DNA of 64,000 bases, from the NCBI GenBank assembly GCA_947184155.2, contig CAMXCT020001429.1, forward strand, positions 89,134 through 153,133, written 5' to 3'. The position numbers and the translations under genes were made by a program. The notes beneath the pieces are model-generated. The model was given only the letters and a program-made list of their open reading frames with translations, was not told the origin of the DNA and ran no database searches. This DNA is from Cladocopium goreaui (taxonomy: Eukaryota > Sar > Dinophyceae > Suessiales > Symbiodiniaceae). Shown in pieces: positions 29,013 to 49,144 of the stretch; within the stretch, counting starts at the first letter, position 1, and each line of letters opens with the position of its first letter.

Positions 29013-29028
29013 TCTACATGCGTGTATA

Positions 29029-29480: not shown

Positions 29481-29504
29481 ACTACACTACATATATATGT
29501 AGGT

Positions 29505-30382
29505 TCCAAACCGCTGAAGGCATGAAATTCAACCAAACACATTGCAACAATATTGAAAACCGGAGCAAAATCGATAAACAATGGAAACATCAATAAAAAC
29601 CTTGGAACATCGACGAAAACCCAACACAAAAACCATGAACACCCTTTAAACATAAATGAAAACCATGGAGATCCATTGAAAACCAGGGAGAAATCGATGA
29701 AAACCATGGACAATTGATGAACACCATTGACAAATCGGTGAAAACAATTGAACACATCAATAAAAACCATGGACAATCATGAAAACCACCAAACAATGAT
29801 GAACATGAAACTCATGTAAAAATCAATGAACACCATGAAATAACACACATCCATAAGCACCATGGAAACGTTGATGAAAAACCGTTGAAAAATTGATGAA
29901 CATTGTAGAAAAACCAATGATAACGTCAGAGAAAGTGACGACAACCATTGAACATGAATGAAAGTCCTGGAGAAAATCAATGAACAAAGCATTGAAAACT
30001 GAATGACAAACAATGAAAACTATGGAACAACCGATGCACACCATGAAAAATCGATGAACATCAATGAAAACCATGGAAACATCCATGAGGACCATGGAAA
30101 CCACAGAACAAAATTGAACACCAGCAAAAAATCGATGAACACCTTTCAGACATTGATGAAAACAATGGACAAATCAATGAAAATTGATGAACACCATGGA
30201 AACATTGATGAAAACCATGGCAAACATTGATGAACACCATGGAAAACATTGATGAAAACCATGAAGAAAGTGATGAACACCGTGGAGAAATCACTGAAAA
30301 CCATGGAAAATTAAATGAAAACCATGGAAACAAAGATAAAACAAATGAACAAATCAATGAAAACTAACACACAATCGATGTA
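29505..30382. repeat. ATGAAAACCATGG-type minisatellite, left part
   Basis: Degenerate head-to-tail units of about 20-24 bp built on gatgaaaaccatggaaa. The same type continues at 48574-48935, beyond the retrotransposon insertion, and a second block lies at 51080-51650. On the - strand it translates to repetitive MVFIDFS-like sequence, which is an artefact of the repeat. Confidence 0.9.
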
Positions 30383-30498
30383 TGTATGCATCGTGTTTGG
30401 CAGGCACTGGGTGTGCATTATCATTAGGGTGAGTGTGTAAGTTGATGAATCCATTTTGGCTCAAGTCTGAGCCAAACTGGCTTCATCATTCTTCTTTT
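30378..30498 (+). repeat. outer element A1 repeat
   Basis: 121 bp, repeated at 48102-48222. It contains a 9-bp stem with an AGTC loop (30455-30476) extended by an outer stem gatgaa/ttcatc (30444-30487). Confidence 0.9.
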
Positions 30499-30519
30499 GT
30501 TGGGGTACCCACACCACTA

Positions 30520-30577
30520 CTAGGGAGTCACCCTAGAGTAAGTGGTTATTCGTTCCTCTACTAGGGAGTTACCCTAG
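30520..30577 (+). promoter_or_regulatory. pair of hairpins with AGTCA/AGTTA loops
   Basis: ctagggagtcaccctag at 30520-30536 and ctagggagttaccctag at 30561-30577: six-base stems with five-base loops, 20-75 bp upstream of the first open frame of the outer element. Similar hairpins recur in other untranslated parts of both elements. Function unknown. Confidence 0.7.
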
Positions 30578-30595
30578 AGTACAGAGGTTACGGAG

Positions 30596-31441
30596 GTGGG
30601 AGATACCCCCCTGATGCCCAGGGCCGCCGTTGTCGTTCGGCCGGGTTGGAATGAGGCTGCCCACACCGACGCTGAGATCCTTCACGCGGCGGCCTACTAC
30701 GAGTTCAAGACCCACGTGGAAGGCCTGCTTCAGCGGGGCCTGGTTTCTCAAGCCACCAGGTTATGGTCCTCAGTTTGTCAGATCGACCATTTCCCCCCTC
30801 ATCCCATTGGTTTGGGGGTGGAGGGACTTCCCCCTTTCAGACGGTCACCCTGCATGGAGGAGAACTGTAGGAGGTGTACCGAATTTTTGGGAGGATTCAA
30901 GTTCCCATGGATTGGTACTTGGAACAGCTCAGCTGTCTTGGCTCTGCCCGGGAGTGACCCGCGGCTGGCGTGGCAGTCCTACTATGATCGCCTGGGCGAG
31001 GCGAAGCTGGACTTGCTGCTCATTGAGCCGCTGCGGACCCATTGGACAGCTAGGGATTTTGCGCCGGACAACATCTTCGGCTTGGTGGCCTTCATCGAGC
31101 ACAATGCCGAGAGTATGGTCGACCTTGCCGAGCTGTGGGATGTCTGGAGGAAGTGGCAGTCCCCGCGCCGAGGATGGAGGGACCCATCAATGGTGCCTAT
31201 CCCAGCTGACCTGGTTGCGTGGAGGGCACCACGGGCCAGAGCAGTGCGGTCGCTCTGGGGGTGGCTCGGTGCCATGGAGGCTGGGGAGGAACCCTTGCCG
31301 CCATGTCGGGCCTGTGGCATTCCGACCCCAGAACTTTGTGAGCACTGTTTCTCTTCAGTGTGCAGTACCTGTCCACCCTCCCAGTGTCCAGGCTGTCACC
31401 CCAACTTGCATAGAGACCCATCTGCAGCAGCTGCGGCCTAG
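30596..31441 (+). CDS. zinc-binding protein of the outer DIRS-like element
   Basis: The product is 281 residues. Its composition is clearly protein-like, unlike the overlapping frame that is also open from 30630. Near the C-terminus, four CxxC/H pairs (CRACG, CEHC, CSTC, CPGCH) form a compact double zinc-binding module of B-box or MYND-like spacing. The middle part, rich in Trp, Leu and Asp, is unrecognised. ATG 30596 is the first in the frame and follows the two hairpins. TAG 31439-31441 is followed at once by TGA in the same frame. The recombinase frame begins about 100 bp downstream, suggesting coupled or alternative initiation. A role in nucleic-acid binding is inferred. Confidence 0.6.
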   Translation: MGDTPLMPRAAVVVRPGWNEAAHTDAEILHAAAYYEFKTHVEGLLQRGLVSQATRLWSSVCQIDHFPPHPIGLGVEGLPPFRRSPCMEENCRRCTEFLGGFKFPWIGTWNSSAVLALPGSDPRLAWQSYYDRLGEAKLDLLLIEPLRTHWTARDFAPDNIFGLVAFIEHNAESMVDLAELWDVWRKWQSPRRGWRDPSMVPIPADLVAWRAPRARAVRSLWGWLGAMEAGEEPLPPCRACGIPTPELCEHCFSSVCSTCPPSQCPGCHPNLHRDPSAAAAA

Positions 31442-31541
31442 TGATGCATGTTTCGTACCTGGTGATACTGAGGTGAATTCTGCAGTTTCAGGCCCAGCAC
31501 GAACGCTCCAAACGTTGGCAGCGGTGGTGTCGGGGGTTGCC

Positions 31542-34403
31542 ATGGCATATCACCCAGGTGCCTACGCAGTTCAAGCCGCAGGTGATGCTCCGCTTGGTGC
31601 CGAGACTGCGATGGAACGGGTGGCCTCGACGAGGGTGGAGCAGTGGCGATCTCAATGGGGATTGCACGACAACACGGACTTCGCCTATGCCTTCGCATCA
31701 TACGACAGCGCAGTGGCACATGGAGGACACCATGTTGCCGATGCGTGGCTGCAGGCGCGTTCCAATATCATTGAAGATGACCTCATTCCGCAGGCGGCAG
31801 CAGTGGCAGAGAGTTCTGGATCGCGGGATAGGCCAGCAAGTTGGCCGGCTCCCAAGGCTTCGATGTTGAAGAAGAGCAGGATGATCCAGGCACTTCGCAT
31901 CCGTCCAGGCCCCGATCAACCAGAACAAGTGCTGCTGAGAGCCGAGGCTTTGCGGAAGGCATTCTCCCAGGCTAAGGTGATGCGCCCTCAAGGGGAGCTG
32001 ACCCCTGAGAGGTATTCACAATGGCAGGATGCCTTGGATACCCTGGCCAAGAAGAAGGTCACGGAGGCCGAGGGCGCCACAATTGTGAATGCCCTCAAGT
32101 CCTGGGCAGAATTGAGGGCATACATGGAACAGAAGGATCGTTTGTTTCCGCCTGACACTTTGGATCTTTATGGCTTTCTGCAAAGCGGCACAAATGGACC
32201 CTACAGGGCTTTTCATTCTTTGAAATGGTTTTCGAAACATGGTCGTTTGCAGTGGGACTTCAGTGATGTGCCAGTGCCCTCAAGGAAGAATCCACCCAAG
32301 AAGGCAAATCCTGAGCAGGCAGTCGCAGTTGAACCGCCGATGATCGCTGCCCTGGAAGAGCGCATACAGGCTATGTATGAGGCAGAGGACCCACGTTGGC
32401 GAGGGTTACTTTCATCATGGCTGGTAACCTTTGGTGTCTTGCGTTGCAAGCACATCATGAGGGCCAGGCCGGTGAAGGTGACACCATCTTCGTTCCATGG
32501 GTTTTGCCCGAAGGGCAAGCAGCGGGCCAATCGGGGTGGATTCTCCTTCTGCATCCCCGCAACATTCGTGAATGGATGGGCTTGGGGAGCCGCCCTATTT
32601 CGGGACTATAGCAAGCTGGACAAGACCAAGCAGGCTACCTCAGGACTCTGTTTCGATGCGGAGGGTACCGCATTTACCTTGAAGTATGTCAATGACTTGA
32701 ACCGTGAGGTCTTCGAGCACTTGGTCCAGAACACAGACGACTTGTCGTCTTACTCTTGGAGGCGAGCTGGCCCCACAGTGGGATCACTGATGAAGCTGAC
32801 GCCCCTGGAGTTATGTTCGCTTGGCGACTGGGCAGATCGGAGCCAGATCCCCAAAGAAGCGACGATGCCTATGCACTACAGTGCAGCCAGGTACGAACAT
32901 TCGCTTCGGACCAAGCATATCATCAGGTTGGCCATGGAGAAGTTGTTGGCCTACGAGTCTTGGGAGACGATTCCGGAACAGAGCTTTGCAGAGGCCCTTG
33001 ACTATGCGCGCCAGCAGGTTGACAAGGTCCTGAAGCAGGAGTCCCGCGTCATTTGGGCAGCTCCTTTGACCAAGGATGAGTTACAGGCTCGTTTTCAGTT
33101 GTCGGAGGCCCTCAAGCTCAAAGCAGCTGCCAAGAGGGAGGAAGCCCAAGCCAAAGGCGGACTTACGGCTATGCCAGCTTCCCTCAATGGGAAGGTGCTG
33201 AGTGCCTTCATGAAGAACGGGGCACCTATTTGTGGGGCATTTCAAACAAAGTCCTGCCCGTTGGAAAAGGAATCATGCCCGGGTAGGCATGCATGTGCCG
33301 TGATGCGTAAAGCTGGACGCGTCTGTGGAGGAGGACACCCAGCATGCGAATGCCATGATAAGAAGTTCATCAAGGTGGAAGAGATGCCGGGCGAAGGGAC
33401 TGGTTCGGGCTCTGCGAAGGCTAAGCCTACCAGCAAGTCCAAGGAGGAGCGACCTCCTGAACCAGCCACCCCACCCAAGGCGCCAGTGAGGCGCCCTCGA
33501 TCGCCACAGGGCCAACCGCCCAAAGCGCCGCCTGAGAAGAAGGCGAAGGCAGCTCCAGCTATACCTGCAGCTCCCCTTCCAGCCCTGGTTTCGAGCTCTG
33601 AGGATGAAGAGATTGAAGTGGAGGAGGAAGACCTCCCGATTCCAGAGGCACTGGATACCCGGGGGCCTGACAGGAAGTTTGACAGGTTGGCCACTGTCCA
33701 CGGCAAGACTGCAGAGAGCCCCAGCCTGATCTACCAGAACAGAGCAGGGGGCAAGCTGTGGCTGAGCGGGATTCCTACCAAGAACACTGCGCATCGCTTT
33801 CCGAAGGGAGTTACCCTTCAGATTGCATGCATGGCTGAGACCCCATCTTCTCGAGGAGGAGTAGTGCTGACAGATGCCCTCTTGAAGCACCTCTGTGTGG
33901 CGCATGGCAACTCCAGGAACAGGGACTTTGAGGAAGTCTGGCCCCTGCTGCGCAATACGATGTACGCAGGAGAATCAGCACTGATCCATTGCCTGTCAGG
34001 ACGTCACAGAGCTGGTGTTGGAGGATGCGTCTTCAGGGCCCTACTTGCGCAGGAGAGCTGGGACGTTGCCGTGGCCTATGTCAAAAGCTGCAGGCGTTCC
34101 CTGGACATTCCGGGGATCATCCATGAGGCTGGGATGAGGTCGTGGGTTGACACGACTCTCAGGACTAGCTCTCTCCGGAACCCATTCCCGGAGCCATGTG
34201 GCTATATCGCAACTCAGCGGTCGAAGGTCCACTTGGAGCTCAACAATGGCCAGACCCTCTGCTCACACAAGCAATCTGCCGAGCGTGCAATCCGCTTGGT
34301 AAAACCGATGGCTACGCAGGATATGAGGGAGGCCATGGCATGGGGCCGCGCGTTTTGTGACAGTTGTTTGGTGCGCGCAGCAGCGAGCTGGCACCCGCGC
34401 TGA
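31542..34403 (+). CDS. tyrosine recombinase fused to Cys-rich and phosphatase-like domains
   Basis: The product is 953 residues from ATG 31542; the frame is open further upstream, but there it overlaps the zinc protein and looks artificial. Residues 1-280 are helical. The recombinase catalytic core follows: GVLRCKHI (Arg at about 301), YSWRRAGPT (Arg-Arg at about 408), LGDWAD, and tyrosines at about 446 and 451 in HYSAARYEHSLR. The usual His of HxxR is Ser here. A Cys/His cluster follows (about 560-610; ICGAFQTKSCP, then CPGRHAC), then a Pro/Lys-rich linker. A C-terminal domain carries IHCLSGRHRAG, an HCx5R signature of dual-specificity phosphatases (Cys about 817). The recombinase would integrate circular cDNA; the role of the phosphatase-like part is unknown. 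Confidence 0.7.
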   Translation: MAYHPGAYAVQAAGDAPLGAETAMERVASTRVEQWRSQWGLHDNTDFAYAFASYDSAVAHGGHHVADAWLQARSNIIEDDLIPQAAAVAESSGSRDRPASWPAPKASMLKKSRMIQALRIRPGPDQPEQVLLRAEALRKAFSQAKVMRPQGELTPERYSQWQDALDTLAKKKVTEAEGATIVNALKSWAELRAYMEQKDRLFPPDTLDLYGFLQSGTNGPYRAFHSLKWFSKHGRLQWDFSDVPVPSRKNPPKKANPEQAVAVEPPMIAALEERIQAMYEAEDPRWRGLLSSWLVTFGVLRCKHIMRARPVKVTPSSFHGFCPKGKQRANRGGFSFCIPATFVNGWAWGAALFRDYSKLDKTKQATSGLCFDAEGTAFTLKYVNDLNREVFEHLVQNTDDLSSYSWRRAGPTVGSLMKLTPLELCSLGDWADRSQIPKEATMPMHYSAARYEHSLRTKHIIRLAMEKLLAYESWETIPEQSFAEALDYARQQVDKVLKQESRVIWAAPLTKDELQARFQLSEALKLKAAAKREEAQAKGGLTAMPASLNGKVLSAFMKNGAPICGAFQTKSCPLEKESCPGRHACAVMRKAGRVCGGGHPACECHDKKFIKVEEMPGEGTGSGSAKAKPTSKSKEERPPEPATPPKAPVRRPRSPQGQPPKAPPEKKAKAAPAIPAAPLPALVSSSEDEEIEVEEEDLPIPEALDTRGPDRKFDRLATVHGKTAESPSLIYQNRAGGKLWLSGIPTKNTAHRFPKGVTLQIACMAETPSSRGGVVLTDALLKHLCVAHGNSRNRDFEEVWPLLRNTMYAGESALIHCLSGRHRAGVGGCVFRALLAQESWDVAVAYVKSCRRSLDIPGIIHEAGMRSWVDTTLRTSSLRNPFPEPCGYIATQRSKVHLELNNGQTLCSHKQSAERAIRLVKPMATQDMREAMAWGRAFCDSCLVRAAASWHPR

Positions 34404-34945
34404 CCATGTCAGTGGGGACGCACCAGAATTCAATTTGAATAAGAGACGCACAGGGCCGATTTTGGTAGGCTGATCACTGAGGTCCATAGCTTGCCCGTAG
34501 GCCAACTTGCATCATGCAGTCAGATGAGCGTTGATTTGAGTGTGGAAAAGAGTCTACATCGACATCCGGGAGGATGAGGTTTGTAAGACTCCGTCAGAAG
34601 CCCTAGCATGTTTTAAGAGTTGCTTACACAGGGAACTGTGAGTGCAAGCAGCATTGACACGAGTATAGGGCTTAATGTGTAAACAGACTGTTTTGACTAG
34701 TCTCATCGGTCCTCATGAGGGAGCTTACACAGGATCCTGTGAGTACAAGCTGTGGGTACATGAGCCGAGGAAATGAGAGAAGGTAACAGTCTGTCTTACC
34801 CCTGAGGAACAGGGGAGTCCTTGTCCAACCCCCCCCGTCGCCTCCTTCTGTCCTTGGATGGCAGGTGATGAGCAGCATGCGGGAGGCATGTATGGGATGA
34901 GCAGCGTTGAATGTTCAAGTCATACAAGGAGTTACCTTGAGTGAA
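34404..34945 (+). promoter_or_regulatory. untranslated spacer with hairpin chain
   Basis: Hairpins at 34627-34640 (cacagggaactgtg), 34728-34741 (cacaggatcctgtg), 34799-34815 (cccctgaggaacagggg), 34876-34890 (catgcgggaggcatg) and 34925-34939 (caaggagttaccttg). The first two lie in a repeated context, gcttacacagg...ctgtgagt. No gene was seen. Confidence 0.65.
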
Positions 34946-36151
34946 ATGACTGGTACTCGTCTAGTTCCGGTGGAGAGTACCACCATTCAGGAAACCATGG
35001 AGTCTTTAGGGATGAATTTCTCGTTGGACCCTGTCGTGACCAAGGCCCTGTTGGCGACCAAGATCCAGAACCTTGAGGAGTTTCGTTTCCTTTTTGAGGA
35101 CGAGACCAAGGTGGACACCTTCTTGGCGAAGTTGCAGCTTGGCGAGGAGCGCCTGATTCAGGGGTCCAGGTTGCGCCGGGCTTGGACGGCGGTCACCTTG
35201 TACTACAAGAACCAAGACCAAGACCGATCCAAAGTCAGTCTTGGTGACCTGGATACGATGCTTGCTGATTCCGAGCTGCGGGATGTCAAGACCAACTTTT
35301 GGATCAGGTATCGGATGCGATACCCACCTGAGGTTCACCCAGCAGATGCTACTCTTTCACGGGTCAGCAGGGAGCTGTCCAAGAGAATGTTATGTGTGTA
35401 CAATCTTTGGAAGGTTCGCACGTTGCAGTATCAACTCCATACCACTCAGAAGAAGCGCAAGTTGGCCGAGGGACTGTACACAGAGGAGGCCGAGGAGGAT
35501 GACAAGACTCCTCATGACTGGGAGAATTACATGGATCGCCTGCTCACGCTGCTGTTGGCCTATGCGATGGCGGGAGTGACCCCCAGAGCAAGTGTGAAGG
35601 ACGCCTCATTGGAGAAGTCCCTTGGAGCCGACTCAACAGCATTTGTGGAGGTGCCTATGGACGTGGTCATGCACTATTACCACAGAGCGAAGCGACAGTC
35701 CAGCATTTTGCCTCTCTCCCAGCGGCTTGCATGGCTTGAAGCGCGGGACCTGGAAGACCGCTCAGACTGGGTGGCGCGATTCCGGGAATCCTCCAAGTCT
35801 TTGGGGGAGGTTATCAAGGAGACATGCCAGGCGCGAGATGCCCATTGGATGCCGCATGCTGTCTCTGGAGGCACCAGGGCGGAAGCAGGCAAGACCACTC
35901 CAACGCCCTCATCCACGACCCCGATGCCCTCTCAGTTCACTCGGGGGAAGGCGGTGAACGGGAAGAAGGTCGCTAAGACCATGAGGGATGGCACGAAGAT
36001 CTGCCAGGCTTTTCAACATGGGCAGTGCAAGAATCCCAAAGGCTCCTGTCCTCAAGGACAGCACAAGTGTGGTGCGGTTGTCCGGGGGGAGCGAGTCTGT
36101 GGTATGCCGGGGCATGGTGCTGGCCAGTGCAGGGCCAAGGTATCGCCATGA
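34946..36151 (+). CDS. Gag-like protein of the outer element, ending in a Cys/His finger
   Basis: The product is about 401 residues from ATG 34946; the frame is open from 34907 without an ATG. The N-terminal two thirds are helical and charged. A Thr/Pro linker precedes a C-terminal cluster, ICQAFQHGQCKNPKGSCPQG, followed by HKCGAV and CGMPGHGAGQC. The same type of finger occurs in the recombinase protein upstream, suggesting duplication. TGA 36149-36151 is followed by CGG, and the Pol frame continues in the same frame, so readthrough would produce Gag-Pol. Confidence 0.65.
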   Translation: MTGTRLVPVESTTIQETMESLGMNFSLDPVVTKALLATKIQNLEEFRFLFEDETKVDTFLAKLQLGEERLIQGSRLRRAWTAVTLYYKNQDQDRSKVSLGDLDTMLADSELRDVKTNFWIRYRMRYPPEVHPADATLSRVSRELSKRMLCVYNLWKVRTLQYQLHTTQKKRKLAEGLYTEEAEEDDKTPHDWENYMDRLLTLLLAYAMAGVTPRASVKDASLEKSLGADSTAFVEVPMDVVMHYYHRAKRQSSILPLSQRLAWLEARDLEDRSDWVARFRESSKSLGEVIKETCQARDAHWMPHAVSGGTRAEAGKTTPTPSSTTPMPSQFTRGKAVNGKKVAKTMRDGTKICQAFQHGQCKNPKGSCPQGQHKCGAVVRGERVCGMPGHGAGQCRAKVSP

Positions 36152-36154
36152 CGG
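36149..36154 (+). promoter_or_regulatory. candidate readthrough stop, TGA-CGG
   Basis: Gag ends at TGA 36149-36151, directly followed by CGG. The same frame stays open through to the Pol ATG at 36236 and beyond. UGA-CGG is one of the two type II contexts documented for programmed readthrough in viral genomes. Confidence 0.55.
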
Positions 36155-36235
36155 TGCCCAGCAGAGGAGGCGGGGACTTCTGCCGGGCAGGAAGAGGCAA
36201 CACCCGTAGACAGAGTTGACTGTCAGCTGCCGCGG

Positions 36236-37513
36236 ATGGCAGATCTTTATGCGGGGCCCAACGTACCCTTGTCAAAAGCGTTCATCTTCTGTGGTTGGGA
36301 AACTATCTCAGTGGATTGGATGCTTGACCGGGGTCATGACCTATCCAACAGCCTAAGGCAGCAATCATTGCATGATCAGCTACAATCAGTTTGTTTCATT
36401 GCAGCTGCCCTGGATTGTTCTACCAAGAGCCGGGCCAGAGAGATCCCCCGAGATTTCGGGGATGGTAGGCCACCACCCCGACCCTTGCGATCGGAACAAC
36501 ACCCGCTGGGGCTTCCTGAGTTGACAGGGTCCCAGTATAGTAGGGTGGAGAAGGACAACGCAGCTGCCAGCTTTGTCCTTTCTGAGATTGACCAGTTGGT
36601 AGATCGAGGGGGTGGCTCTGTCCGGGAGAACCCATACAACAGCCTTCATTGGTGGACGCCGGATGAAGTCAGCATGTGGGAAAGTGGTCGGTGGTCAGAC
36701 CAGCGGTACTCAGCATGTTGCTTTGGAGGTGCCAGGGCGAAGTTGCAACGCCTGAGGCACAACATTGCAGAAATCGCACAATGGCCCAGGGCTGACTGCA
36801 ACCACTTTCATGACCCACAGGAATGGGAGCCATGGATCCAAGACGGCCAACGGCACTACCCATCCGCTGAGGAGTCCGAGTACACAGCAGAACTTTGCTT
36901 TGCGATCGCTACAGCGGCTTCATGGTGGGCGGTGCGTGTTGGTCATGCCAAATTGTATGTGCCGCGTTCGCCATCCCCTAGCTGTACCGGTCACAGGGAT
37001 CATTGGCTCGACTTGGACCCCAGGTCCCTCCGAGAATGGGCTATGACTCCTTTGGCAATCAGTCTGGGCTTGAGGCCGGTGGACACATCGGAAGCGGCTC
37101 GTGTGCCAACCCGGGCCTGTGTCGATGAGGTGTTGCAGCAGGGCGAGTTGCCCCTGGGGCATGTCTATGTGGGTATGGGTAACCACGCTCACCGGCTCCA
37201 GACAACGAAGTGGAAATCCCCTTGGCAAGTTGGGGTGAATTGCACACCACAAGATTGGATTCCACTCTTTGTTCAGTACGTCAGAGAGACGCTATGGCAG
37301 GAGCTTGACGAGCTGGAAGGCAAGGTTTTGGTGTGTGATTGCCCTGCAGCACAAACCTGCGAGGCTGACCTCTTGGCAGGGCTTGTGTTTGACCGGCTCA
37401 GCTCGCATCGCCATCAAGTAGCCCCACAAGTTGTCCAAGGATCGAATGGCAGGAGCCACACAGCGGTGACACGCAGTGTTCTCTTGTCGAGCATGGCCAA
37501 AGCAACAGGCATG
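36236..37513 (+). CDS. Pol of outer element, 5' part: methyltransferase-like and DUF4326-like domains
   Basis: The frame is open from the Gag stop, with first ATG at 36236. The N-terminal domain has the layout of methyltransferases carried by DIRS-type elements: AFIFCGWETISVDW, then ALDCSTKSRAREIP (Cys at 36416), then RENPYNSLHWW (ENP at 36626-36634). The second domain reads GHVYVGMGNHAHRL, TTKWKSPWQVG, then LEGKVLVCDCPAAQTCEADL, which matches the pattern of DUF4326 (GK-L-C-C-P...C..DxL). At 37513 the inner element interrupts the frame; it continues at 45548 in the same phase. The residual open tail after 37514 (about 70 codons) belongs to the inner element. Confidence 0.65.
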
Positions 37514-38038
37514 CGGGTCGACACGCAGGGGCGAGTAGTGGGATTCGATAGCACCCTTATCGTTGAATGTTGCAGTAGGTGTAGTTGTCTTCGTTGTGGT
37601 GCTAACTTTACTTTGGGCAAAATAACTGGACGACCCGGGTTCGAATGTTCATCATGTTTCTGGATGCCTTACTTTTATGTGAACTTGGTCCACTTGATTG
37701 GTTGTGACTTGATCTCTGGGTGAGTCATGAGTTTCCATGATGTGCTTTGCGTGTGGACACACGGGACTACATTAGAGATAGGATCTCTGGCTGTTCATGT
37801 GGGTTTGCATGAAGTTTATCGCCTGTCATGTGGACACATGAGTTTCGATTTAGAGATGTGAGTCTCTTGCTTGTCATGTGAGATTAACATGAATGTTTGG
37901 ACCTGTCATGAGGATTCATGACAAGATTGCTAGCTGGCCACTAGCGGTTTGGGCGTAACGGTTTGGTTGCGCGTTTAGCGTAACGGATTGGTTGCGCGGA
38001 GGGCCGCGGCGTTGGTGATGTTCAGTGTTTCTTGAGCA
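37514..38038 (+). repeat. inner element A1 repeat, hairpin-rich
   Basis: Starts cgggtcgacacgcagg. Within 37725-37945 lie about ten short perfect hairpins end to end, for example 37774-37788 (agagataggatctct), 37904-37923 (tgtcatgaggattcatgaca) and 37929-37945. At 37950-38000 a unit cgtaacgg(t/a)ttggttgcgcg is present twice. The whole is repeated at 44624-45148. Confidence 0.9.
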
Positions 38039-38065
38039 TTTCTTCTTGTTGTTTGCTGCTTATCA

Positions 38066-40102
38066 ATGGATTCTGGCACCGAAGCCTCGGAGTTGGATCC
38101 TTCAGATATGGAGGAACGGGACTTGTGGGCCAAGTTGCCAAAGAAGTTCCGAGCACAGGTGGGAAAATCTGAAGGCCAATTGCCGCGCGATGAAATTCTT
38201 GGTTTTCTGGTGGACAGCGAAGCAGAAGCAATCGAACTCATGGCTGATTTTGCTCCAGGGGACGGGCTTGCAGGTCGTGTCTTGGTGGAGCTATGGAAAC
38301 GTGTGCTACCTCGAACACAAAGGTTGTGTCAACGTCGAGGACGCGTGGATCCTGCTTTGCAATCATTAGTTGTGGCTTCTGCAGCTCCACTTGTGGCTAG
38401 CGCCGAAGCACAGCATACCTTGTCTTGGTTGAAACGGCAGTCAGGTGCTTGCCGTCAGTGTCGCGGTTGGTCCGCTAGACAGCGCCGCGAGTCATTACAT
38501 AGGCCACCACTACAGTCGCGAGAAGCTTTGGAAGCTGCTGAGCTGAATCGTTGGCGTGCCAGTCTAGCCGAGTTGGTGATTGAAGCTGGTTTGCCGGTGT
38601 CCCACCATGCACAGCTGACTTCCAACCCTGAGGCCATCATTGCTGCGTCCTTAGGTAGCATGCGAGCAGCAACTATTCGAAAACGGGTGCGCGAATGGCG
38701 AAAAGTGAGGAATTTCTCTTTGCAACTGTGCGGGCAGCCTTGGCCTCCACATGTAGGTGTTGTGCTAGATTACCTTCATGAACGAATGGAGGAGCCTTGT
38801 GCCCGGACCGTGCCTGAGGCAGTGCTTGGAGCATTAGCATTCATGGAAAAGGCGGGCAGTGTGGCAGAAACAGAAAGACTAGCCTCCGCCCCGGTGCTGC
38901 GAAATTTTGTCAATCAAGCAACACAAGATTTAGAGGTGGGAGCGCCACCAAAGAAGTCTGCCCCCTTGTTGCCAGTGGTTTTGATTGGTGCTTTGGAGCT
39001 GATGGTCATGTGTAAGAGTGAGCCTCTGTATGCACGTGCTTTGGCTTGGTATAAGCTGCTGAAACTGTGGACTGCAAGCCGCACCGGAGACCTGTCATCC
39101 CTGCGCCCTTCATCTCTGCGCCTAACACCTTTAGGGCTTGTGGGCTGCTTGGAGCGTACCAAAACTACAGGACCAGGCAAGCGGGTGCGGCACCTGCCAA
39201 TCTTCATTAGTCGATCTGCCTACTTGTTTGCTCCCGGATGGCTGGAAAAGGGTATGGAAATTTGGGGAAGCGATGAATTTTCTTTTGACAGGGACTATTT
39301 CTTGCCGTTGCCTTCTGCAGATTGGGCGTCCGTACGCCGCGTCATGGCAGACTTTGCAGACACTGCCGCCTTGAGCAAACGTTTGTTCCGCGCATTAAAA
39401 CTACCGGTGAAACAGCACAGCCATTGGGTGCCTTCTGTTGTGGAATTATTTCGCGCTGAAGCCGCATTATCTTTTTGGACCGAGCATTCGGAACGCAACT
39501 GGCTAAACAGCCACTTGGCTGTCATTGGCGTGCCGCAATCGGAGCGAGATTTCATAGGTCGTTGGCGCGTGACTTCCTCTTCTGACGAATATCAACGCCT
39601 AGCGCAGCGGGTTGTGATCAATGCCCAAGAGCAGCTACTAACCTATTTTGCTGGTGATGACAAGTGGGACCTTGGTCACGCAGGCGTGCCCGAACTTGAG
39701 CAATTTTTGCGCCAACGCCGAGTTCCCGAAGTGCTCATTGCTGAGCAATGCAAGCAATTGAGGCTACCGGCGAAGTGGTGCAGCCGGGTTCCCGAGCCCC
39801 AGGTGCCGGCTCCTCCAATGCCGGAGCCCGCGCCTGTTCAACCCATTGAAGAAAGTCAGGCCGAGGAGGCGAGCCCTTATTTTGTTGTGGTGATTGGCAA
39901 ACGAGGGTTTCGCCGCTTGCACCGGCGTGGCAGATGCGGTGTATCTGCAATTGAAGTTGGGCAATCAGAGCCGTGCTGGTCCTTGCAAGGGCTTACGTAT
40001 AATTTAGCTTGTCGCCACTGTTGGAAGCGTGGTGAAGCAACAGTGTCCGAGGCTGAAGAAGCAGATGATTCAGATGAATCTGATGAATCGGTTGAGGGTT
40101 GA
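38066..40102 (+). CDS. tyrosine recombinase of the inner element
   Basis: The product is 678 residues; ATG 38066 starts MDSGTEASELDPSDMEE. The catalytic domain occupies about residues 310-550: TASRTGDLSSLRPSSL (first Arg), FWTEHSERNWLNSHL (HxxR), VIGVPQSERDFIGRW, and SDEYQRLAQ (nucleophile Tyr). All four signature positions are present. A Cys/His motif (CRQCRGW) lies near residue 131, and a Pro-rich then acidic tail ends the protein. Such recombinases insert a circular DNA copy without target duplication, which fits the clean insertion seen here. The gene lies directly after A1 and is read in the direction of the RT. Confidence 0.85.
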   Translation: MDSGTEASELDPSDMEERDLWAKLPKKFRAQVGKSEGQLPRDEILGFLVDSEAEAIELMADFAPGDGLAGRVLVELWKRVLPRTQRLCQRRGRVDPALQSLVVASAAPLVASAEAQHTLSWLKRQSGACRQCRGWSARQRRESLHRPPLQSREALEAAELNRWRASLAELVIEAGLPVSHHAQLTSNPEAIIAASLGSMRAATIRKRVREWRKVRNFSLQLCGQPWPPHVGVVLDYLHERMEEPCARTVPEAVLGALAFMEKAGSVAETERLASAPVLRNFVNQATQDLEVGAPPKKSAPLLPVVLIGALELMVMCKSEPLYARALAWYKLLKLWTASRTGDLSSLRPSSLRLTPLGLVGCLERTKTTGPGKRVRHLPIFISRSAYLFAPGWLEKGMEIWGSDEFSFDRDYFLPLPSADWASVRRVMADFADTAALSKRLFRALKLPVKQHSHWVPSVVELFRAEAALSFWTEHSERNWLNSHLAVIGVPQSERDFIGRWRVTSSSDEYQRLAQRVVINAQEQLLTYFAGDDKWDLGHAGVPELEQFLRQRRVPEVLIAEQCKQLRLPAKWCSRVPEPQVPAPPMPEPAPVQPIEESQAEEASPYFVVVIGKRGFRRLHRRGRCGVSAIEVGQSEPCWSLQGLTYNLACRHCWKRGEATVSEAEEADDSDESDESVEG

Positions 40103-40597
40103 TCTATGCTCCAAGTAGCGCGGTTAGCGTGTAAGGGATAGGTAGGTAACCAGGAGATGTTTACAAGCTCAAGGGGAGAATCCCCTGCAAGCTTGGGTCT
40201 TTTGTGCGAGTCAGTCGCATGAAACCGTTTGGCGATGTTGGGTCGCTGTTTGTGTCAGCGCTGAGCGTCTGGCATGTGATACGTTTGTGCGAGTTTGTCG
40301 CATGATATGGCCATTTGGTGTGAAGATTATCACACGTTTGCTAGGGAGTTACCTAGTGCTGTGCTTTGGAAGGTACAGGGCCTTTGGGTAGATTGCGGTT
40401 GGCTAACCTTTCCGTTAGACTTTTGTAACGGTGTTTAGAGATAGCTTGGCAAGGGGTGTAGTTTTCTAAGCTGTCATGTGCTTAGGTACCAGGGTGTCCT
40501 TGCTTGTGTCATCGTTGCCGCCGCATCTGCAGCCCCCTTTGTTTGAAGCTTTGGTGATTTGCCATTGAGTGAGATTCTTTTGTATTCCTTGTTGCTA
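40103..40597 (+). promoter_or_regulatory. untranslated spacer with hairpin chain (inner element)
   Basis: Hairpins at 40172-40186 (aggggagaatcccct), 40205-40219 (tgcgagtcagtcgca), 40288-40302 (tgcgagtttgtcgca), 40318-40335 (gtgtgaagattatcacac) and 40341-40356 (ctagggagttacctag). Two share the stem and differ only in the loop. No gene was seen. Confidence 0.7.
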
Positions 40598-41794
40598 ATG
40601 GCAGCTGCTTCTTTGGAGATCATCTTGAAGAAGGTGGAGCCTGCTTTGAGGTATCATATGGATGAAGCAGGTGTCTCTGCGGAAACGCAGAAGAAAGTGT
40701 ATGAACAAGGAATTGTCTCCTTGAGGACGTTTGCAGGCTTGGAAGAAGATCGCAAGGCTGTCCGCACAGTGTTGCAGTCAGACTTTGGTTTGGATCCAGC
40801 GGGAAATTTGGCTCTTCGCTCAGACGTTGCATTGTTGCTGTGCGTATGGGAAGGCGCACGTACCCAGTTGTCTGTGCAAGAGAAGAATCGCCAAGAGTCC
40901 AAGCTGGGCATGCAACAGCGCATTGTGCAGCCGTCGGATTATGCAACCATGCGCAGCGCTGTGGAAGCCAAGCATGGCAGACTGAAGGATCGTGAGGCCC
41001 CAAGCAAAGGCATGATAGCCTCCAAACTTGAGCAAGTGGAAGATGGGGCACCCATTGCCGAGGATCTCCGCGAAGTGACGTCTTTTGCAGATTCAGAAGT
41101 CGAGGCCTACAACGCGATCATCGATCCGTCGATGGGGTTCTTGCGGATTCGTCCAGGCAAGACGACCACGACACCGCCAAGCACTCCGGAAGAATTGCGG
41201 CTCCGCCACAGGCGCATTGGGCTAGCCTGGGATTTTGTAAAAGCGCGTCACACCACACGCGCTTGGTTGCCTACATCATCGGTCGACACGTTCCGCAAAT
41301 TGTCCGATTATGTTTTGGGTGCATCAGTCGCTGGTCTGCGCGCGGCTGACCAGCGAAGTCCCACGTGGTCTCTGGTCCTCACTTATGAGCTGGAATTGCG
41401 AAAGGCCGCTTATCGGTTTGTTCGGGATGGTGATTGTGCTGGCATCGATTCTGCAATCGAAAAGGCCATGGACAGTCCAAAGTTGTTGACAGAGCATTTT
41501 GTAGTACCTTTCACGCTGGGCAAATCATTTTCCCCTGCCAGCGGAAGCCCAGCACATGAAAAGGGCTTTGGAAAAGGCAAGCAGATGCCGTCCTGGGACA
41601 GGCAATGGGGCAAATCCTCTAAGACACCTGAAGGCAAGCCGATTTGTTTCAAGTTCCAGAAAGGGAGGTGCTCCGACAAGGCTTGTCGATTTGCACATGC
41701 GTGCCAGCATTGCTTCGGTCGCCATCCCTTCACGCAGTGCCGTTTCAAGAAGGAGGCTGGAAACGGGCGGGTGCCTGAGGAGGCGGCTTCTTGA
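40598..41794 (+). CDS. Gag-like protein of the inner element with CCCH-type finger
   Basis: The product is 398 residues from ATG 40598; the frame is open from 40559 without ATG. The body is helical and charged. The C-terminus carries ICFKFQKGRCSDKACRFAH, a C-x8-C-x4-C-x3-H type zinc finger, followed by ACQHCFGRHPFTQC, a second Cys/His motif. This is the expected position of nucleic-acid-binding fingers in Gag. It ends at TGA 41792-41794, followed by CTA. The next frame, coding RT, continues without a shift and starts its own ATG 13 bases later. Confidence 0.7.
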   Translation: MAAASLEIILKKVEPALRYHMDEAGVSAETQKKVYEQGIVSLRTFAGLEEDRKAVRTVLQSDFGLDPAGNLALRSDVALLLCVWEGARTQLSVQEKNRQESKLGMQQRIVQPSDYATMRSAVEAKHGRLKDREAPSKGMIASKLEQVEDGAPIAEDLREVTSFADSEVEAYNAIIDPSMGFLRIRPGKTTTTPPSTPEELRLRHRRIGLAWDFVKARHTTRAWLPTSSVDTFRKLSDYVLGASVAGLRAADQRSPTWSLVLTYELELRKAAYRFVRDGDCAGIDSAIEKAMDSPKLLTEHFVVPFTLGKSFSPASGSPAHEKGFGKGKQMPSWDRQWGKSSKTPEGKPICFKFQKGRCSDKACRFAHACQHCFGRHPFTQCRFKKEAGNGRVPEEAAS

Positions 41795-41797
41795 CTA
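41792..41797 (+). promoter_or_regulatory. candidate readthrough stop, TGA-CTA
   Basis: The single stop between Gag and the RT frame is TGA followed by CTA. UGA-CUA is the best-known efficient readthrough context in eukaryotes. The frame reads through cta tct gtg gct atg directly into the RT protein. Confidence 0.6.
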
Positions 41798-41806
41798 TCT
41801 GTGGCT

Positions 41807-44182: not shown

Positions 44183-44240
44183 AAAAAGGGTGCGTGGGGG
44201 GCGTGCAGGATGATAGCCACGTCGCATGCTTTTCAAGTTG

Positions 44241-44623
44241 GGATTTAAGTTGTCAGCGGCGTGGCTGATAGAAGACATTTGACCGTGGTAGGCGGTTGTT
44301 GTTTCATGCTGCATGGATTTTGAGAATTTCTTGGGTGCAGTGTGTTTTTCCACCACACCGTAGGAAGAAAAGTTAGTGCGGACTCGATTGCGGTTCTGCA
44401 GGGTTTAATGGAAGAGTGAGCTGATGCATGGCAATTAAAGTTTGGTTTTGTCTGTTGTGGGGACTGGAGTGGATTTTGGGTGTGAACCTCTTACTGTACA
44501 GTTGTGTTTGAACTTCAGCAGAGTTAATAGGACCACAGTAAGGTAGGATCTCGGGAACCTCTGTCTGGAATGTTGTGTTTAAACTTTGGCGGGTTGATAG
44601 GACCAATGTGCGGTAGGATCCCG
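44241..44623 (+). repeat. inner element B1 repeat
   Basis: 383 bp, repeated at 45165-45547. It contains an internal duplication: two related ~60 bp units, each with ttgtgttt(g/a)aactt and ataggacca and ending near ggtaggatc (about 44500-44560 and 44572-44621). Confidence 0.9.
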
Positions 44624-45148
44624 CGGGTCGACACGCAGGGGCGAGTAGTGGGATTCGATAGCACCCTTATCGTTGAATGTTGCAGTAGGTGTAGTTGTCT
44701 TCGTTGTGGTGCTAACTTTACTTTGGGCAAAATAACTGGACGACCCGGGTTCGAATGTTCATCATGTTTCTGGATGCCTTACTTTTATGTGAACTTGGTC
44801 CACTTGATTGGTTGTGACTTGATCTCTGGGTGAGTCATGAGTTTCCATGATGTGCTTTGCGTGTGGACACACGGGACTACATTAGAGATAGGATCTCTGG
44901 CTGTTCATGTGGGTTTGCATGAAGTTTATCGCCTGTCATGTGGACACATGAGTTTCGATTTAGAGATGTGAGTCTCTTGCTTGTCATGTGAGATTAACAT
45001 GAATGTTTGGACCTGTCATGAGGATTCATGACAAGATTGCTAGCTGGCCACTAGCGGTTTGGGCGTAACGGTTTGGCTGCGCGTTTAGCGTAACGGATTG
45101 GTTGCGCGGAGGGCCGCGGCGTTGGTGATGTTCAGTGTTTCTTGAGCA
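44624..45148 (+). repeat. inner element A2 repeat
   Basis: Copy of A1 (37514-38038), joined directly to B1. One substitution noticed (ggtttggctgcg against ggtttggttgcg). Confidence 0.92.
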
Positions 45149-45164
45149 CCCACCCGCCCGCCCT

Positions 45165-45547
45165 GGATTTAAGTTGTCAGCGGCGTGGCTGATAGAAGAC
45201 GTTTGACCGTGGTAGGCGGTTGTTGTTTCATGCTGCATGGATTTTGAGAATTTCTTGGATGCAGTGTGTTTTTCCACCACACCGTAGGAAGAAAAGTTAG
45301 TGCGGACTCGATTGCGGTTCTGCAGGGTTTAATGGAAGAGTGAGCTGATGCATGGCAATTAAAGTTTTGTTTTGTCTGTTGTGGGGACTGGAGTGGATTT
45401 TGGGTGTGAACCTCTTACTGTACAGTTGTGTTTGAACTTCAGCAGAGTTAATAGGACCACAGTAAGGTAGGATCTCGGGAACCTCTGTCTGGAATGTTGT
45501 GTTTAAACTTTGGCGGGTTGATAGGACCAATGTGCGGTAGGATCCCC
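45165..45547 (+). repeat. inner element B2 repeat
   Basis: Copy of B1, separated from A2 by 16 bp of C-rich sequence. It ends ggtaggatccc at the insertion border. Confidence 0.92.
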
Positions 45548-47842
45548 CCTTTTGGGCCTTTCTACATCCTGCAGGAGTCACTGGCGCTGGCGTTCAAGAA
45601 GCTCTACCCAGGTGACTGGTTGGAAGGGCTTGCCATCCCATTTGTCGAGGATTTGGTGAACCAGCACCCGCTTGACCTGTACACTCGATGGAGGCACCAA
45701 CAGGGGCTTGACATGGAAGGCAGCTGGAACCCAGTTTTGGCAGCTCCTTCCGTGCGGCAGAAGATGCGGACAGCTGAGGGCCAGCAGGTGGGGGCCATCA
45801 ACCACAGGGCAGCGCTGGCACCCCTCTTGCCGTTCCATCTTCAACCAGACCAGCATTTTGAGCGAGCTTTGCAACTGAGTGTACAACCTTTGCCTACAGA
45901 AGGCCTTCCGGTGTTGGATGATGACCTTCGCTTTGCGGCTTCCTTCTCGAGCATGCCAGGAGTCGACCTGAGCAAGCTGAGAAAACGAGCCATGGGCCTT
46001 TTAGCCGAGATGATGAGGCGCTGGAGCAAGATCACGGAACATTTGAGGACCAAACAGACTGAGGCAATTCGGACGGCCACAGCACAAAGAGACATTGGCT
46101 TCACAGCCATCCTGTTGCTTTTAGCCAACTGGGGCGATGTGACGCTGCCGGCTGGCCTCTGCATGGGGCTCCCAGCGGTGGGATACGCACCCCCCTATGG
46201 CATTTTCCCAGAGCAGGAGGCATCCCGCTTGACACGGGAGGATGTACTTCGTGACTGGAGGACCCACAACAGGTGGATCCTGACTCGTTTGAGGCCTGGC
46301 AACGATGATGAATTCATGTTACAACAGAGCCTCAAGGATGCCGAGAAAGGCTTTTGCAGCTTGCCGATGGATGCAGAGGAACTGCATAGTTTGCTGGGTG
46401 CAGAGCCTTATCGTTTGATTCCTCGATGTGTGATCACACAATCCTCGGGGAAGCAACGGGTGATTGACGATGCCTATGTAGGCCTGCAGTCTGAGCGTTC
46501 CAGCGATGCCAATAAGCTCACCCTTTGCTCAGCCCTTCGACCGGCTCAGCATCTACAATATGCCTGCGCATATGGAGCCCTCCCCATCTGGGACACAGAA
46601 GAATGGGAATCGGGCGGTGAGGACTGGCCGGATGCTTACAGATTTTGCCCCATGAGCAAGGACGAATCTTTATGTTGCATTGTGGCCTTTTTCCATCATG
46701 AATGGCAGAAGCCTGCCTTTATGATTTACACTGGTTTGCTTTTTGGCCTTCCCTTGGCAGTCACGTCTTTCAATCGCTACAGTAGGCTGGTGGAAGCTTT
46801 GGCGCGTCGATTCACTTTCTGTTTGACCAGCTTGTATTTCGATGATGCTCATGTAACGGATAGAAAGTCTTGCAAAGGATCAGGTCAACGAGCCATGCAG
46901 TTTCTCAACAATCTTTTGGGCACACCCTTCTCAGCAGAGAAGTGCCAGAGGATGCAGCAATCAGGCACTTTCTTGGGGCTCGACCATGACTTCAGTCAAA
47001 TTCACACCCAAGGCACCATCCAATTCTGGGCCCGTGAACGCATCGAACAGAAGCTCCTTCACCTCATGAAGCACGCTGAGGATTCCAGCAGGCTTCAACC
47101 AGGAGTTGCAGCCAAGATCTATGGCGTGGCCAACTTCTTCGAGTTGGGAGTATGGGGGCGTATTGGTTGCGGAGGCTTAGCCCCAATCAAGCGCCGACAA
47201 CAGGAGCGTACCTCAGAGTTAACTGAGGAACTGCGTCGATGCTTCGATTTGTTGCGCGCTGTCATTGCTACCAAACCCTCCAGGACAATCGAGATTTGGC
47301 CACATGCAGGGCCACGCTTTCTTGCAGCCTCAGATGCAGCCTTGGAAATCCCAGGCCAAGGGACAGGCGGCTTCTTGGTCGTCTGGCATGATGGCTGCCT
47401 CGAGCAGCGGGAGGCCTTTGTGTCGATCATCCCCCCAGTGGTGTACAACCTCTGGGAGCCAGGAGACACCAAGATCGCCCAACTGGAGCTGTTACAGGTT
47501 CTCTATGCGCTCTTCACCCGTCCATCGACGTTTCGTGGCCGTAGAGGACTTTGGTTCATTGATAATACAGCGGCGCTGATGGCTCTGATTCGAGGTCGTT
47601 CAGATAATGCAGATTTAGAACATATGACTCGTCTGATTCATATCACTCTTTTTGCACTCCAAGCCTGGTTTTTCTGGGAGTGGATCCCTAGCAAGGCCAA
47701 CTGGTCCGACGAGATCAGTCGTGAGGGCCTCCAGGCTACATGGCACAAGCGCCATGGGTTCACCACGCATTTCGCAGTTTTCCCCTTCGAGCTGTGGTCT
47801 CTACCACTTCCTGCGTTTCTTCAGGTCGTGGAGTTTCTCTAA
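45548..47842 (+). CDS. Pol of outer element, 3' part: reverse transcriptase-RNase H
   Basis: Continues the frame interrupted at 37513 (764 codons here; the upstream part of the open frame, 45494-45547, belongs to inner B2). RT motifs: IPRCVITQSSGKQRVIDDA, motif A DAYRFCPMSKD, motif B GLPLAVTSFNRYSRL, motif C LYFDDAHVTD (YFDD at 46835-46846), and SGTFLGLDHD. RNase H-like motifs: FLAASDAALE, QLELLQVLYAL, FIDNTAALMALIRG and IPSKANWSDEISR. The layout parallels the inner element's polymerase but the two sequences differ strongly, so they are different families. The gene as a whole is broken by the inner insertion; no other defect was seen. Confidence 0.82.
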   Translation, partial: PFGPFYILQESLALAFKKLYPGDWLEGLAIPFVEDLVNQHPLDLYTRWRHQQGLDMEGSWNPVLAAPSVRQKMRTAEGQQVGAINHRAALAPLLPFHLQPDQHFERALQLSVQPLPTEGLPVLDDDLRFAASFSSMPGVDLSKLRKRAMGLLAEMMRRWSKITEHLRTKQTEAIRTATAQRDIGFTAILLLLANWGDVTLPAGLCMGLPAVGYAPPYGIFPEQEASRLTREDVLRDWRTHNRWILTRLRPGNDDEFMLQQSLKDAEKGFCSLPMDAEELHSLLGAEPYRLIPRCVITQSSGKQRVIDDAYVGLQSERSSDANKLTLCSALRPAQHLQYACAYGALPIWDTEEWESGGEDWPDAYRFCPMSKDESLCCIVAFFHHEWQKPAFMIYTGLLFGLPLAVTSFNRYSRLVEALARRFTFCLTSLYFDDAHVTDRKSCKGSGQRAMQFLNNLLGTPFSAEKCQRMQQSGTFLGLDHDFSQIHTQGTIQFWARERIEQKLLHLMKHAEDSSRLQPGVAAKIYGVANFFELGVWGRIGCGGLAPIKRRQQERTSELTEELRRCFDLLRAVIATKPSRTIEIWPHAGPRFLAASDAALEIPGQGTGGFLVVWHDGCLEQREAFVSIIPPVVYNLWEPGDTKIAQLELLQVLYALFTRPSTFRGRRGLWFIDNTAALMALIRGRSDNADLEHMTRLIHITLFALQAWFFWEWIPSKANWSDEISREGLQATWHKRHGFTTHFAVFPFELWSLPLPAFLQVVEFL

Positions 47843-47867
47843 GTGCTTTGGGAGGAATGAAGTGCAT

Positions 47868-48106
47868 TGGGAAAGATTCACCCTGTGTAGCCTCCTGGGT
47901 TGACAGGAGTGCGGAACAGGGAGTATGGATCTAACCAGTGCTGCTGTGTAGGAGGATACCTACACAGCTACCCAAAGCATTAATCCTGCTGGAGGCAGGT
48001 TGAGACCATACGAAGCGACAGGAAATAGGAAAAAGGATATGCGAGCGTGAACCTGGTGTGAACGAGTGTGTTTAACATCTATGCTTTACACCTCACATCT
48101 AATGTA
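47868..48106 (+). repeat. outer element B1 repeat, hairpin-rich
   Basis: 239 bp, repeated at 48335-48573. Hairpins at 47892-47909 (ctcctgggttgacaggag), 47944-47967 (nine-base stem, AGGATA loop) and 47985-47999 (cctgctggaggcagg). Confidence 0.9.
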
Positions 48107-48222
48107 TGTATGCATCGTGTTTGGCAGGCACTGGGTGTGCATTATCATTAGGGTGAGTGTGTAAGTTGATGAATCCATTTTGGCTCAAGTCTGAGCCAAA
48201 CTGGCTTCATCATTCTTCTTTT
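48102..48222 (+). repeat. outer element A2 repeat
   Basis: Copy of A1 (30378-30498), overlapping the end of B1 by the shared atgta. It is followed by about 112 bp of unique spacer (48223-48334) that also holds short inverted repeats. Confidence 0.9.
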
Positions 48223-48334
48223 CCCTCCCTTCCCTCCCTATGAGATAGGACTCCTGTGGAGTATCCTCTCTTGTAGGGGATCACATCATTGCGGATGTTG
48301 ATCTCTACGTGTCGTTGCACGACTGAGCACTAGG

Positions 48335-48573
48335 TGGGAAAGATTCACCCTGTGTAGCCTCCTGGGTTGACAGGAGTGCGGAACAGGGAGTATGGATCTA
48401 ACCAGTGCTGCTGTGTAGGAGGATACCTACACAGCTACCCAAAGCATTAATCCTGCTGGAGGCAGGTTGAGACCAGACGAAGCGACAGGAAATAGGAAAA
48501 AGGATATGCGGGCGTGAACCTGGTGTGAACGAGTGTGTTTAACATCTATGCTTTACACCTCACATCTAATGTA
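48335..48573 (+). repeat. outer element B2 repeat
   Basis: Copy of B1 with two differences noticed (accagacg/accatacg; gcgggcg/gcgagcg). It ends ctaatgta at the border with the minisatellite. Confidence 0.9.
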
Positions 48574-48935
48574 AACCTTGCAGAATTTGATGAGCACCAT
48601 GAGCATCTTGAAGAAATTGACGAACACCATGGAAACATCGGTGAAACATTGAGCAAATCAATGAACATCATTGAAAAATCGATAGAACAGAGGAAAACTC
48701 GATGAAGCATCAGGGAAACCATGGAGCAATCAATAAACATCCATGAAGACCATGGAACCATTGGTAAACACCCTGGATGAGAACGATAACGAAATCGATG
48801 GGGACCTTGCAAAACTTGATGACAACCATGGAAAAGTCATTGAAAATCAATGAACACCATTGAAACATCATTGACAACCACGGGAGAAATTGATGAGGAC
48901 CTTTGAAAGATCGATGACAATCATTGAGAAACGAA
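48574..48935. repeat. ATGAAAACCATGG-type minisatellite, right part
   Basis: Continues the unit type of 29505-30382. It ends with a phrase like gatgacaatcattgagaaa that also ends the block at 51650, so the outer element split one minisatellite. Confidence 0.8.
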
Positions 48936-49144
48936 GGTTACCGTTGCTAGATTGGAATATTAAGAAATCATTTAAAGAACAAATGAATCAATAGCAAAAA
49001 TATGCAGGCGTTTCACATCCCCAGAGAACACAATGACACCGGTGCCTAGTGCACTTTGGTGGCAAGGGGCTAGCTCAATTGTGTCAATGCACGTTCATGA
49101 TCAAAAGTTACAATGTGTTTAAGGTTACGCTTTGTATAAGTGCT

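Follow-up and report, generated by a model that had tools for sequence, protein, structure and literature searches.

A window of 64,000 nucleotides from the Cladocopium goreaui genome (the whole stretch analysed here, lying on contig C1429) harbours two retrotransposons of the tyrosine recombinase (YR) kind, one of which sits inside the polymerase (Pol) gene of the other. We regard it as highly probable that the two are distantly related YR retrotransposons, that the inner element is nested in the outer Pol gene, that Gag-Pol is made by readthrough of a UGA codon and that the outer element bears a phosphatase-like part. The repeats, the ends, the uninterrupted targets of the inner element, the copies elsewhere in the genome, the gene order, the selection acting on ORFa, on the YR open reading frame (ORF) and on its phosphatase-like domain, and the one conserved TGA that separates Gag from Pol are all read directly from the DNA.

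Repeat plan, termini and nesting

The outer element spans positions 30378-48573 and follows the plan A1-genes-B1-A2-B2, as seen in a self-comparison of 28-51 kb. The inner element, a second YR retrotransposon at 37513-45546, has the same A1-genes-B1-A2-B2 plan and splits the outer Pol frame at 37512|45547. The repeats are the following:

30378..30498, + strand: outer repeat A1, left end; 121/121 (100%) to A2; element itself starting near the TA at 30381-30382
47868..48106, + strand: outer repeat B1; 237/239 (99.2%) to B2
48102..48222, + strand: outer repeat A2; 121/121 (100%) to A1
48335..48573, + strand: outer repeat B2, right end ...CTAATGTA; right end matches in 12/13 readable copies
37513..38038, + strand: inner repeat A1, left end; 525/526 to A2; left end matches in 6/6 readable copies
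44241..44622, + strand: inner repeat B1; 379/382 to B2
44623..45148, + strand: inner repeat A2, abutting B1 (circle-junction copy); 525/526 to A1
45165..45546, + strand: inner repeat B2, right end ...GGATCCC; right end matches in 7/7 readable copies

The repeat pairs are not due to chance, since their BLAST E-values range from 4e-58 to 0, and both insertions look young, because mismatches amount to 2/360 aligned bases in the outer element and 4/908 in the inner one. A sequence-only reading of this DNA had proposed two split-direct-repeat YR retrotransposons, one nested in the other and both recently active; the repeats, the ends and the uninterrupted target copies described below bear out the nest, and copies that are 98-100% identical, together with the near-identical repeats, bear out the recent activity. 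The self-comparison that it suggested returned the repeats as described, with the outer lengths intact (A 121, B 239 bp) and the inner ones corrected from 525 to 526 bp for A and from 383 to 382 bp for B.

The termini of the inner element are constant among copies with unrelated flanks: the left end reads GCGGGTCGAC in six of six readable copies, the window included, and the right end reads ..AGGATCCC, ending GGATCCC, in seven of seven, the window again included, two of which have a single B. Inner B1 and A2 adjoin without overlap. The ends of the outer element were read in 17 copies including the window, of which 13 were readable on the left (unreadable: C12, C2355 (N), C4591 and C1439) and 13 on the right (unreadable: C733 (N), C1331, C347 and C1439). 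The only bases common to the left ends before TGTATGCATCG are TA (12 copies) or CA (1), which places the start of the outer element itself near the TA (30381) and reduces the genuine overlap of B1 and A2 to TA; TATGTATGCATCG forms the left end in 12/13. On the right, CTAATG is followed by TA (12) or AA (1). The ATG at 30378-30380, with which outer A1 opens, belongs to the host and coincides with the element's own bases, a refinement of the earlier claim that the termini can be read directly; the ends are otherwise confirmed by the other copies. A five-base B1/A2 overlap was considered as the true core and rejected in favour of TA on the ends of the 13 copies. TA-rich tracts make up at least six of the outer left flanks, of which two are perhaps alleles, and C565 and C733, which have a common left flank, may be alleles. 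In one copy of the inner element (L010, L024; C1744:55134-56057), B2 runs straight into one more A-B unit, joined to it as B|A, which may stem from unequal exchange or from the insertion of a short circle.

Copies were sought in the window's own genome (1.17 Gb), in lists that score the best candidates only, so that copy counts are lower bounds. The second part of outer Pol has at least 61 matches, most of them in two groups of about 96-100% and 85-90% identity, and in 29 of the 61 listed the Pol frame is uninterrupted over 1218 aa, as expected if 36152-37512 continues straight into the part that starts at 45547. The inner insertion point is uninterrupted in nine of nine other outer copies fetched, which were chosen among these 29 by an open frame that itself requires the lack of an interruption; not so selected is the identity of three outer copies (C5944, C1046 and C1449) to the joined window flanks at 60/60 bases compared. 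Because uninterrupted outer copies equal the joined flanks, the inner element was inserted without duplication or loss, that is, without a target-site duplication. For the outer element, the TA core is deduced from the ends of its copies, and no empty site was found. The right junction of the window recurs on contig C1462 in a slightly different copy within which that contig ends, and we read it as an allele or a duplicate. Misassembly of the nest, for which the draft state of the genome and this second, truncated version of the right junction might be cited, is extremely improbable, given joined flanks identical to three other copies at every base compared, a matching right junction on C1462 and inner ends that match those of other copies.

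The inner insertion must be the later of the two. The outer element would first have entered a degenerate minisatellite at a TA, and the inner one later the outer Pol gene, with no bases gained or lost. Reverse transcription would form a circle by way of the internal B1-A2 copy, leaving a B|A junction, which the YR would recombine with the target, at a TA core in the outer family and with no common core seen in the inner. As a weak test, the phase of the host array was compared across joins, and a single TA is indeed the best one (24 vs 20-21), but 49/300 random joins score equally, which speaks against giving this result weight. With base-exact ends, uninterrupted targets and young copies for two families, the circle-junction model of integration becomes readable from sequence.

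The degenerate minisatellite, made of AATCGATGAAAACCATGG-like units, flanks the outer element on the left (29550-30377) and on the right (48574-48960). Related repeated segments of 70-81% identity are found on either side of this array, at 28776-29500 and 50317-50990.

Coding content and the phosphatase-like domain

The gene order is ORFa, YR ORF, Gag, Pol in the outer element and YR, Gag, Pol in the inner one; the order YR-Gag-Pol is thus present in both, and it recurs in six relatives (L016, L017, L019, L020, L022 and L023). The coding features are listed below.

30614..31441, + strand: outer ORFa, 275 aa, Cys-rich C-terminus; purifying selection; no Pfam family
31542..34403, + strand: outer YR ORF, 953 aa from ATG, with recombinase, Cys/His knuckle, linker and phosphatase-like domain; motifs by eye, dN/dS
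33777..34151, + strand: cysteine-phosphatase-like domain with HCLSGRHRAG (C-X5-R) loop; sub-threshold profiles; dN/dS 0.02-0.03
34946..36151, + strand: outer Gag with CCCH-like knuckle; ORF, knuckle resembling that of the outer YR ORF
36152..37512, + strand: outer Pol, first part, with methyltransferase-like domain followed by DUF4326; hidden Markov model (HMM) of relatives, DUF4326 at 2e-6
45547..47842, + strand: outer Pol, second part, with reverse transcriptase (RT) and RNase H-like region; RVT_1 at 4.9e-6, below the curated cut-off
38066..40102, + strand: inner tyrosine recombinase (R339 K366 H474 R477 W500 Y509); residues invariant in 7 rows; Cre alignment
40598..41794, + strand: inner Gag with Cys/His knuckle; ORF, relatives at 27-49% identity
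41795..44182, + strand: inner Pol, RT and RNase H-like; RVT_1 at 5e-4, below the curated cut-off; at least 61 matches in its own genome

The sequence-only reading had assigned a recombinase, a Gag-like protein and an RT-RNase H to each element. The Gag-like proteins, the inner recombinase and, with RVT_1 below its cut-off, the RT of both Pols stand, the RT motif being seen by eye as YVDD / FDDA; RNase H is recognised by eye only in both elements, and the outer recombinase is the weaker assignment. That reading had overlooked ORFa, DUF4326, the domains resembling a phosphatase and a methyltransferase, and the lone TGA at the junction of Gag and Pol.

In the inner-type recombinase, the R-K-H-R-W-Y set is invariant in seven of seven rows, five other families having 26-50% identity to the window copy, and HSAR/GGW/Y of Cre aligns with EHSER/GRW/Y (hhalign E 0.011, probability 4%). 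The outer recombinase shows R/K, YSWRR, GDW and Y by eye, and its ORF is constrained, with a dN/dS of 0.044 overall against the copy L076 and, in one comparison, of 0.035 in the YR part. Several observations weigh against these assignments: the hhalign probability of the inner-type profile with Cre is only 4%, lambda Int is not matched by that profile, the outer recombinase does not match Cre, and neither recombinase is recognised by any Pfam, PDB, PHROG or NCBIfam profile. Single-sequence AlphaFold models, which were not used, reached a pLDDT of only 39 for the inner YR and 36 for the phosphatase-like region. YR identity is well supported in the inner element and less so in the outer. In a phage collection nothing matched the inner YR credibly (two matches at E 4), and viral contigs yielded no relative of inner Pol.

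Upstream of the outer YR, comparison with three second-subfamily copies gives a dN/dS of 0.05-0.09 for ORFa and of more than 2 for the overlapping YR frame, a pattern indicating that the ORFa frame is under purifying selection and the YR frame there is not. The 34 YR-frame codons that precede the first ATG (31442-31541) have a dN/dS of 0.24-0.33, a mild constraint in a segment too short to decide. Translation of the outer YR may begin ahead of this ATG, through a +1 frameshift out of ORFa or at a codon other than ATG. The Cys/His knuckle of the outer YR ORF (33180-33428) resembles that of outer Gag (35951-36214), with tblastn values of 4e-10 and 3e-10, perhaps as a copy made within the element.

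An HMM built from the methyltransferase-like domains of three relatives matches the N-terminus of outer Pol at 30.1 bits (E 1.3e-9), the best of 100 shuffled sequences reaching 1.5 bits. The domain is divergent, with PPC replaced by LDC, CST kept and PP lost. No N-terminal methyltransferase-like domain was found in inner Pol, which does not match that HMM, and Pfam scans of the outer and inner Pol gave no match to PF00145 (C5 DNMT).

The phosphatase-like domain comprises residues 746-870 of the outer YR ORF. Its dN/dS of 0.02-0.03, at a dS of about 1 against three second-subfamily copies, denotes a constraint as strong as that of the YR part, and the HCLSGRHRAG loop, with Ala after its Arg, is invariant in five copies. 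Cut out, the piece is matched by PTP-SAK (0.0057), Y_phosphatase3 (0.0065), DSPc (0.016) and Y_phosphatase2 (0.24), and DUSP22 matches the region at 0.19. Four points weigh against the assignment: these profiles all fall below their curated cut-offs, the unrelated mutase model AMG1_II scores comparably (0.012), the DUSP22 alignment does not show the usual acid Asp where it would be expected, and the whole outer YR ORF yields no Pfam family at 0.05. A chance C-X5-R match within an otherwise unknown domain would account for the sub-threshold and unspecific scores and for a general acid that is not obvious; we consider it rather unlikely, as four phosphatase-type models and DUSP22 align around one and the same loop, and as the low dN/dS and the invariant loop, which speak for constraint and not for a fold, also tell against it. 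The weaker proposal is that the phosphatase-like domain might serve the element, for example by acting on RNA 5' phosphates or on a host phosphoprotein. Literature searches on phosphatase domains in DIRS or other retrotransposons found no such elements, as judged by title. Under strong selection inside a recombinase ORF, this domain is an unusual accessory part.

The Gag-UGA-Pol junction

In both window elements Gag and Pol lie in one frame and are separated by a single TGA:

36149..36154, + strand: TGA CGG between outer Gag and Pol; kept in 18/18 other outer copies fetched
41792..41797, + strand: TGA CTA between inner Gag and Pol; single TGA in 16/16 readable inner-type junctions, window included

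Eight of the 18 outer copies belong to the second subfamily; all 18 were chosen from rows with the 1218-aa Pol frame, which requires some stop before Pol but does not select which one. Across families, a common frame with a single TGA between the genes is found in 17 of 17 readable junctions, made up of the outer one and 16 of inner type with the window's own included. The inner-type relatives, whose Pol identity is about 35-63%, were readable at seven of the eight loci L016-L023 and at eight of ten further ones, always with TGA. Left out of the count were L103 and L110 (N-terminal part of Pol damaged or truncated), L021 (Gag not adjoining Pol) and the broken or partial inner copies L012, L013, L014 and L015, of which L014 keeps TGA CTA after a frame-shifted Gag; the inner copies L009, L010 and L011, all TGA CTA, were counted together with the window copy. 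Since L101 and L102 are near-identical and L023 and L105 close, the 17 junctions are not 17 independent events.

Programmed UGA readthrough is the best reading of this junction. Type II readthrough is described as occurring where CGG or CUA accompanies the UGA, often together with a stem-loop (PMC11166343), and a UGA with CUA or CGG directly 3' is present in both window elements. The codon after TGA is CTA or CGG in 8/17 junctions, as compared with 2.0% of codons in window ORFs, and the +4 base is C in 12/17. Against readthrough stand the five of 17 junctions that lack the +4 C, the predicted RNA structure after either window TGA, which is not clearly above shuffles (z -1.2 and -0.1), and the position of the first Pol ATG in the window, at codon 5 in the inner element and at codon 29, just before the motif-I-like DLYAG, in the outer one.

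This early ATG makes an AUG start possible in both window Pols, and Gag and Pol might accordingly be translated separately, by reinitiation, by internal entry or from trans-spliced monocistronic mRNAs, with the TGA as an ordinary stop. An ATG within 29 codons in 8/17 junctions, both window elements included, and the lack of clear RNA structure after the TGAs would suit such a scheme. It is nonetheless improbable, as frame and TGA are constant in 17/17 junctions while other terminators in the same elements vary (TGA in 3/8 for YR and 6/9 for Pol). Nine inner-type Pols start with the methyltransferase-like domain (three used for the HMM, six by eye), and in eight of them the first ATG lies inside or after what we take to be motif I (LYxFSG/LYLFAG), L106 having it before; in L019 it falls inside a conserved block. 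Decoding of the TGA as an amino acid such as selenocysteine by a dedicated system, and not as a leaky stop, would fit with TGA being the only codon seen at the junction and is very unlikely, given that TGA also terminates YR and Pol ORFs.

Under programmed readthrough, the RNA would be translated into Gag and, past the UGA, into Gag-Pol, which in many families would carry the methyltransferase-like domain at the Pol N-terminus. The conserved Gag-UGA-Pol junction would then be a simple, testable expression switch. In a bolder version, an entire ancient group of YR retrotransposons would obtain its polymerase solely as a Gag-Pol fusion through an obligatory leaky UGA, and one lineage would have fused its recombinase to a functional cysteine phosphatase that aids mobility, for example by processing 5' phosphates on the element's RNA; we advance it tentatively and lean slightly against it. 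Literature searches on readthrough in DIRS or tyrosine recombinase retrotransposons returned nothing relevant, as judged by title, and the conserved junction and the phosphatase-like domain are new as far as the literature searched goes.

Relation to known elements and other features of the window

The two elements look like distant families of one kind. In plain alignments the outer and inner YR score above 200/200 shuffles (z 4.2), and the Gags give a weak score that 8/200 shuffles reach; by hhalign, the RTs are collinear at a borderline E of 0.015 (probability 3%), and the N-terminal region of the outer YR matches the inner-type YR at a likewise borderline E of 0.016 (probability 3%). The first impression that the two are unrelated holds for the repeats and less well for the proteins.

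In Ngaro elements the YR comes last. The nearest described elements, likened here by description, are the SymbioDIRS-Dnmt3 of Symbiodinium (de Mendoza et al. 2018, PMC5890265), which share the A-coding-B-A-B repeats, a YR in a separate ORF and a methyltransferase in the Pol ORF, the outer element here having a divergent methyltransferase-like domain at that place. They are described in two architectures with the order of integrase and Pol shuffled, and versions without DNMT also exist (PMC5890265). The elements of the window differ from them in that inner Pol lacks an N-terminal methyltransferase-like domain and that of the outer is divergent and without a PF00145 match; two relatives' Pols have no Pfam match at 0.01. 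A term search of the main text of PMC5890265 gave zero mentions of Gag, readthrough or phosphatase.

As in Ngaro and VIPER, the split direct repeats run A1...B1-A2-B2 and the internal ones follow the YR, B1 and A2 here lying 3' of Pol and hence of YR, and no Dam-type methyltransferase is seen (PMC4157794, PMC6681497). The last point is an absence of Pfam matches in the ORFs scanned and of any candidate by eye, which is weak evidence. Unlike YR elements with a gag-like ORF1 (PMC6681497), those described here have the YR (inner) or ORFa and the YR (outer) ahead of Gag. PAT elements also have split direct repeats, and some have a zinc-finger Gag, but they differ in a putative methyltransferase (MT) domain, none such being seen here (PMC4157794, PMC3266345); the MT domain of the DIRS class is described as Dam-like (PMC5890265). 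The sequence-only reading called the plan typical of Ngaro/PAT-type elements; this agrees with the repeats, but Gag does not come first and no Dam-type methyltransferase was seen. The repeat plan itself is already known, for Symbiodinium DIRS-like elements and for PAT, Ngaro and VIPER (PMC5890265, PMC4157794, PMC6681497, PMC3266345). The junction resembles type II UGA readthrough of RNA viruses in its UGA followed by CUA or CGG and in the +4 C of most junctions, and is unlike it in lying between retrotransposon Gag and Pol, in having no supported stem-loop and in the other contexts of several families (PMC11166343).

Elsewhere in the genome, the multi-Mb contig C1 has several very strong prokaryote-type integrase matches and is probably a bacterial contaminant or associate. 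Within the window, 989-2944 is a long ORF with RT-like motifs by eye, probably another retroelement, and 54015-61908 encodes what by eye is a Ty1/copia-like polyprotein, in which a stretch around SPRCGPWS is weakly methyltransferase-like, scoring 4.7 bits against the HMM of the relatives. A palindromic cluster of TTCTGCATAG-type repeats, whose arms are at most 93% complementary, occupies 49152-49542, and a long simple-repeat tract at 62262-63232 is open in several frames.

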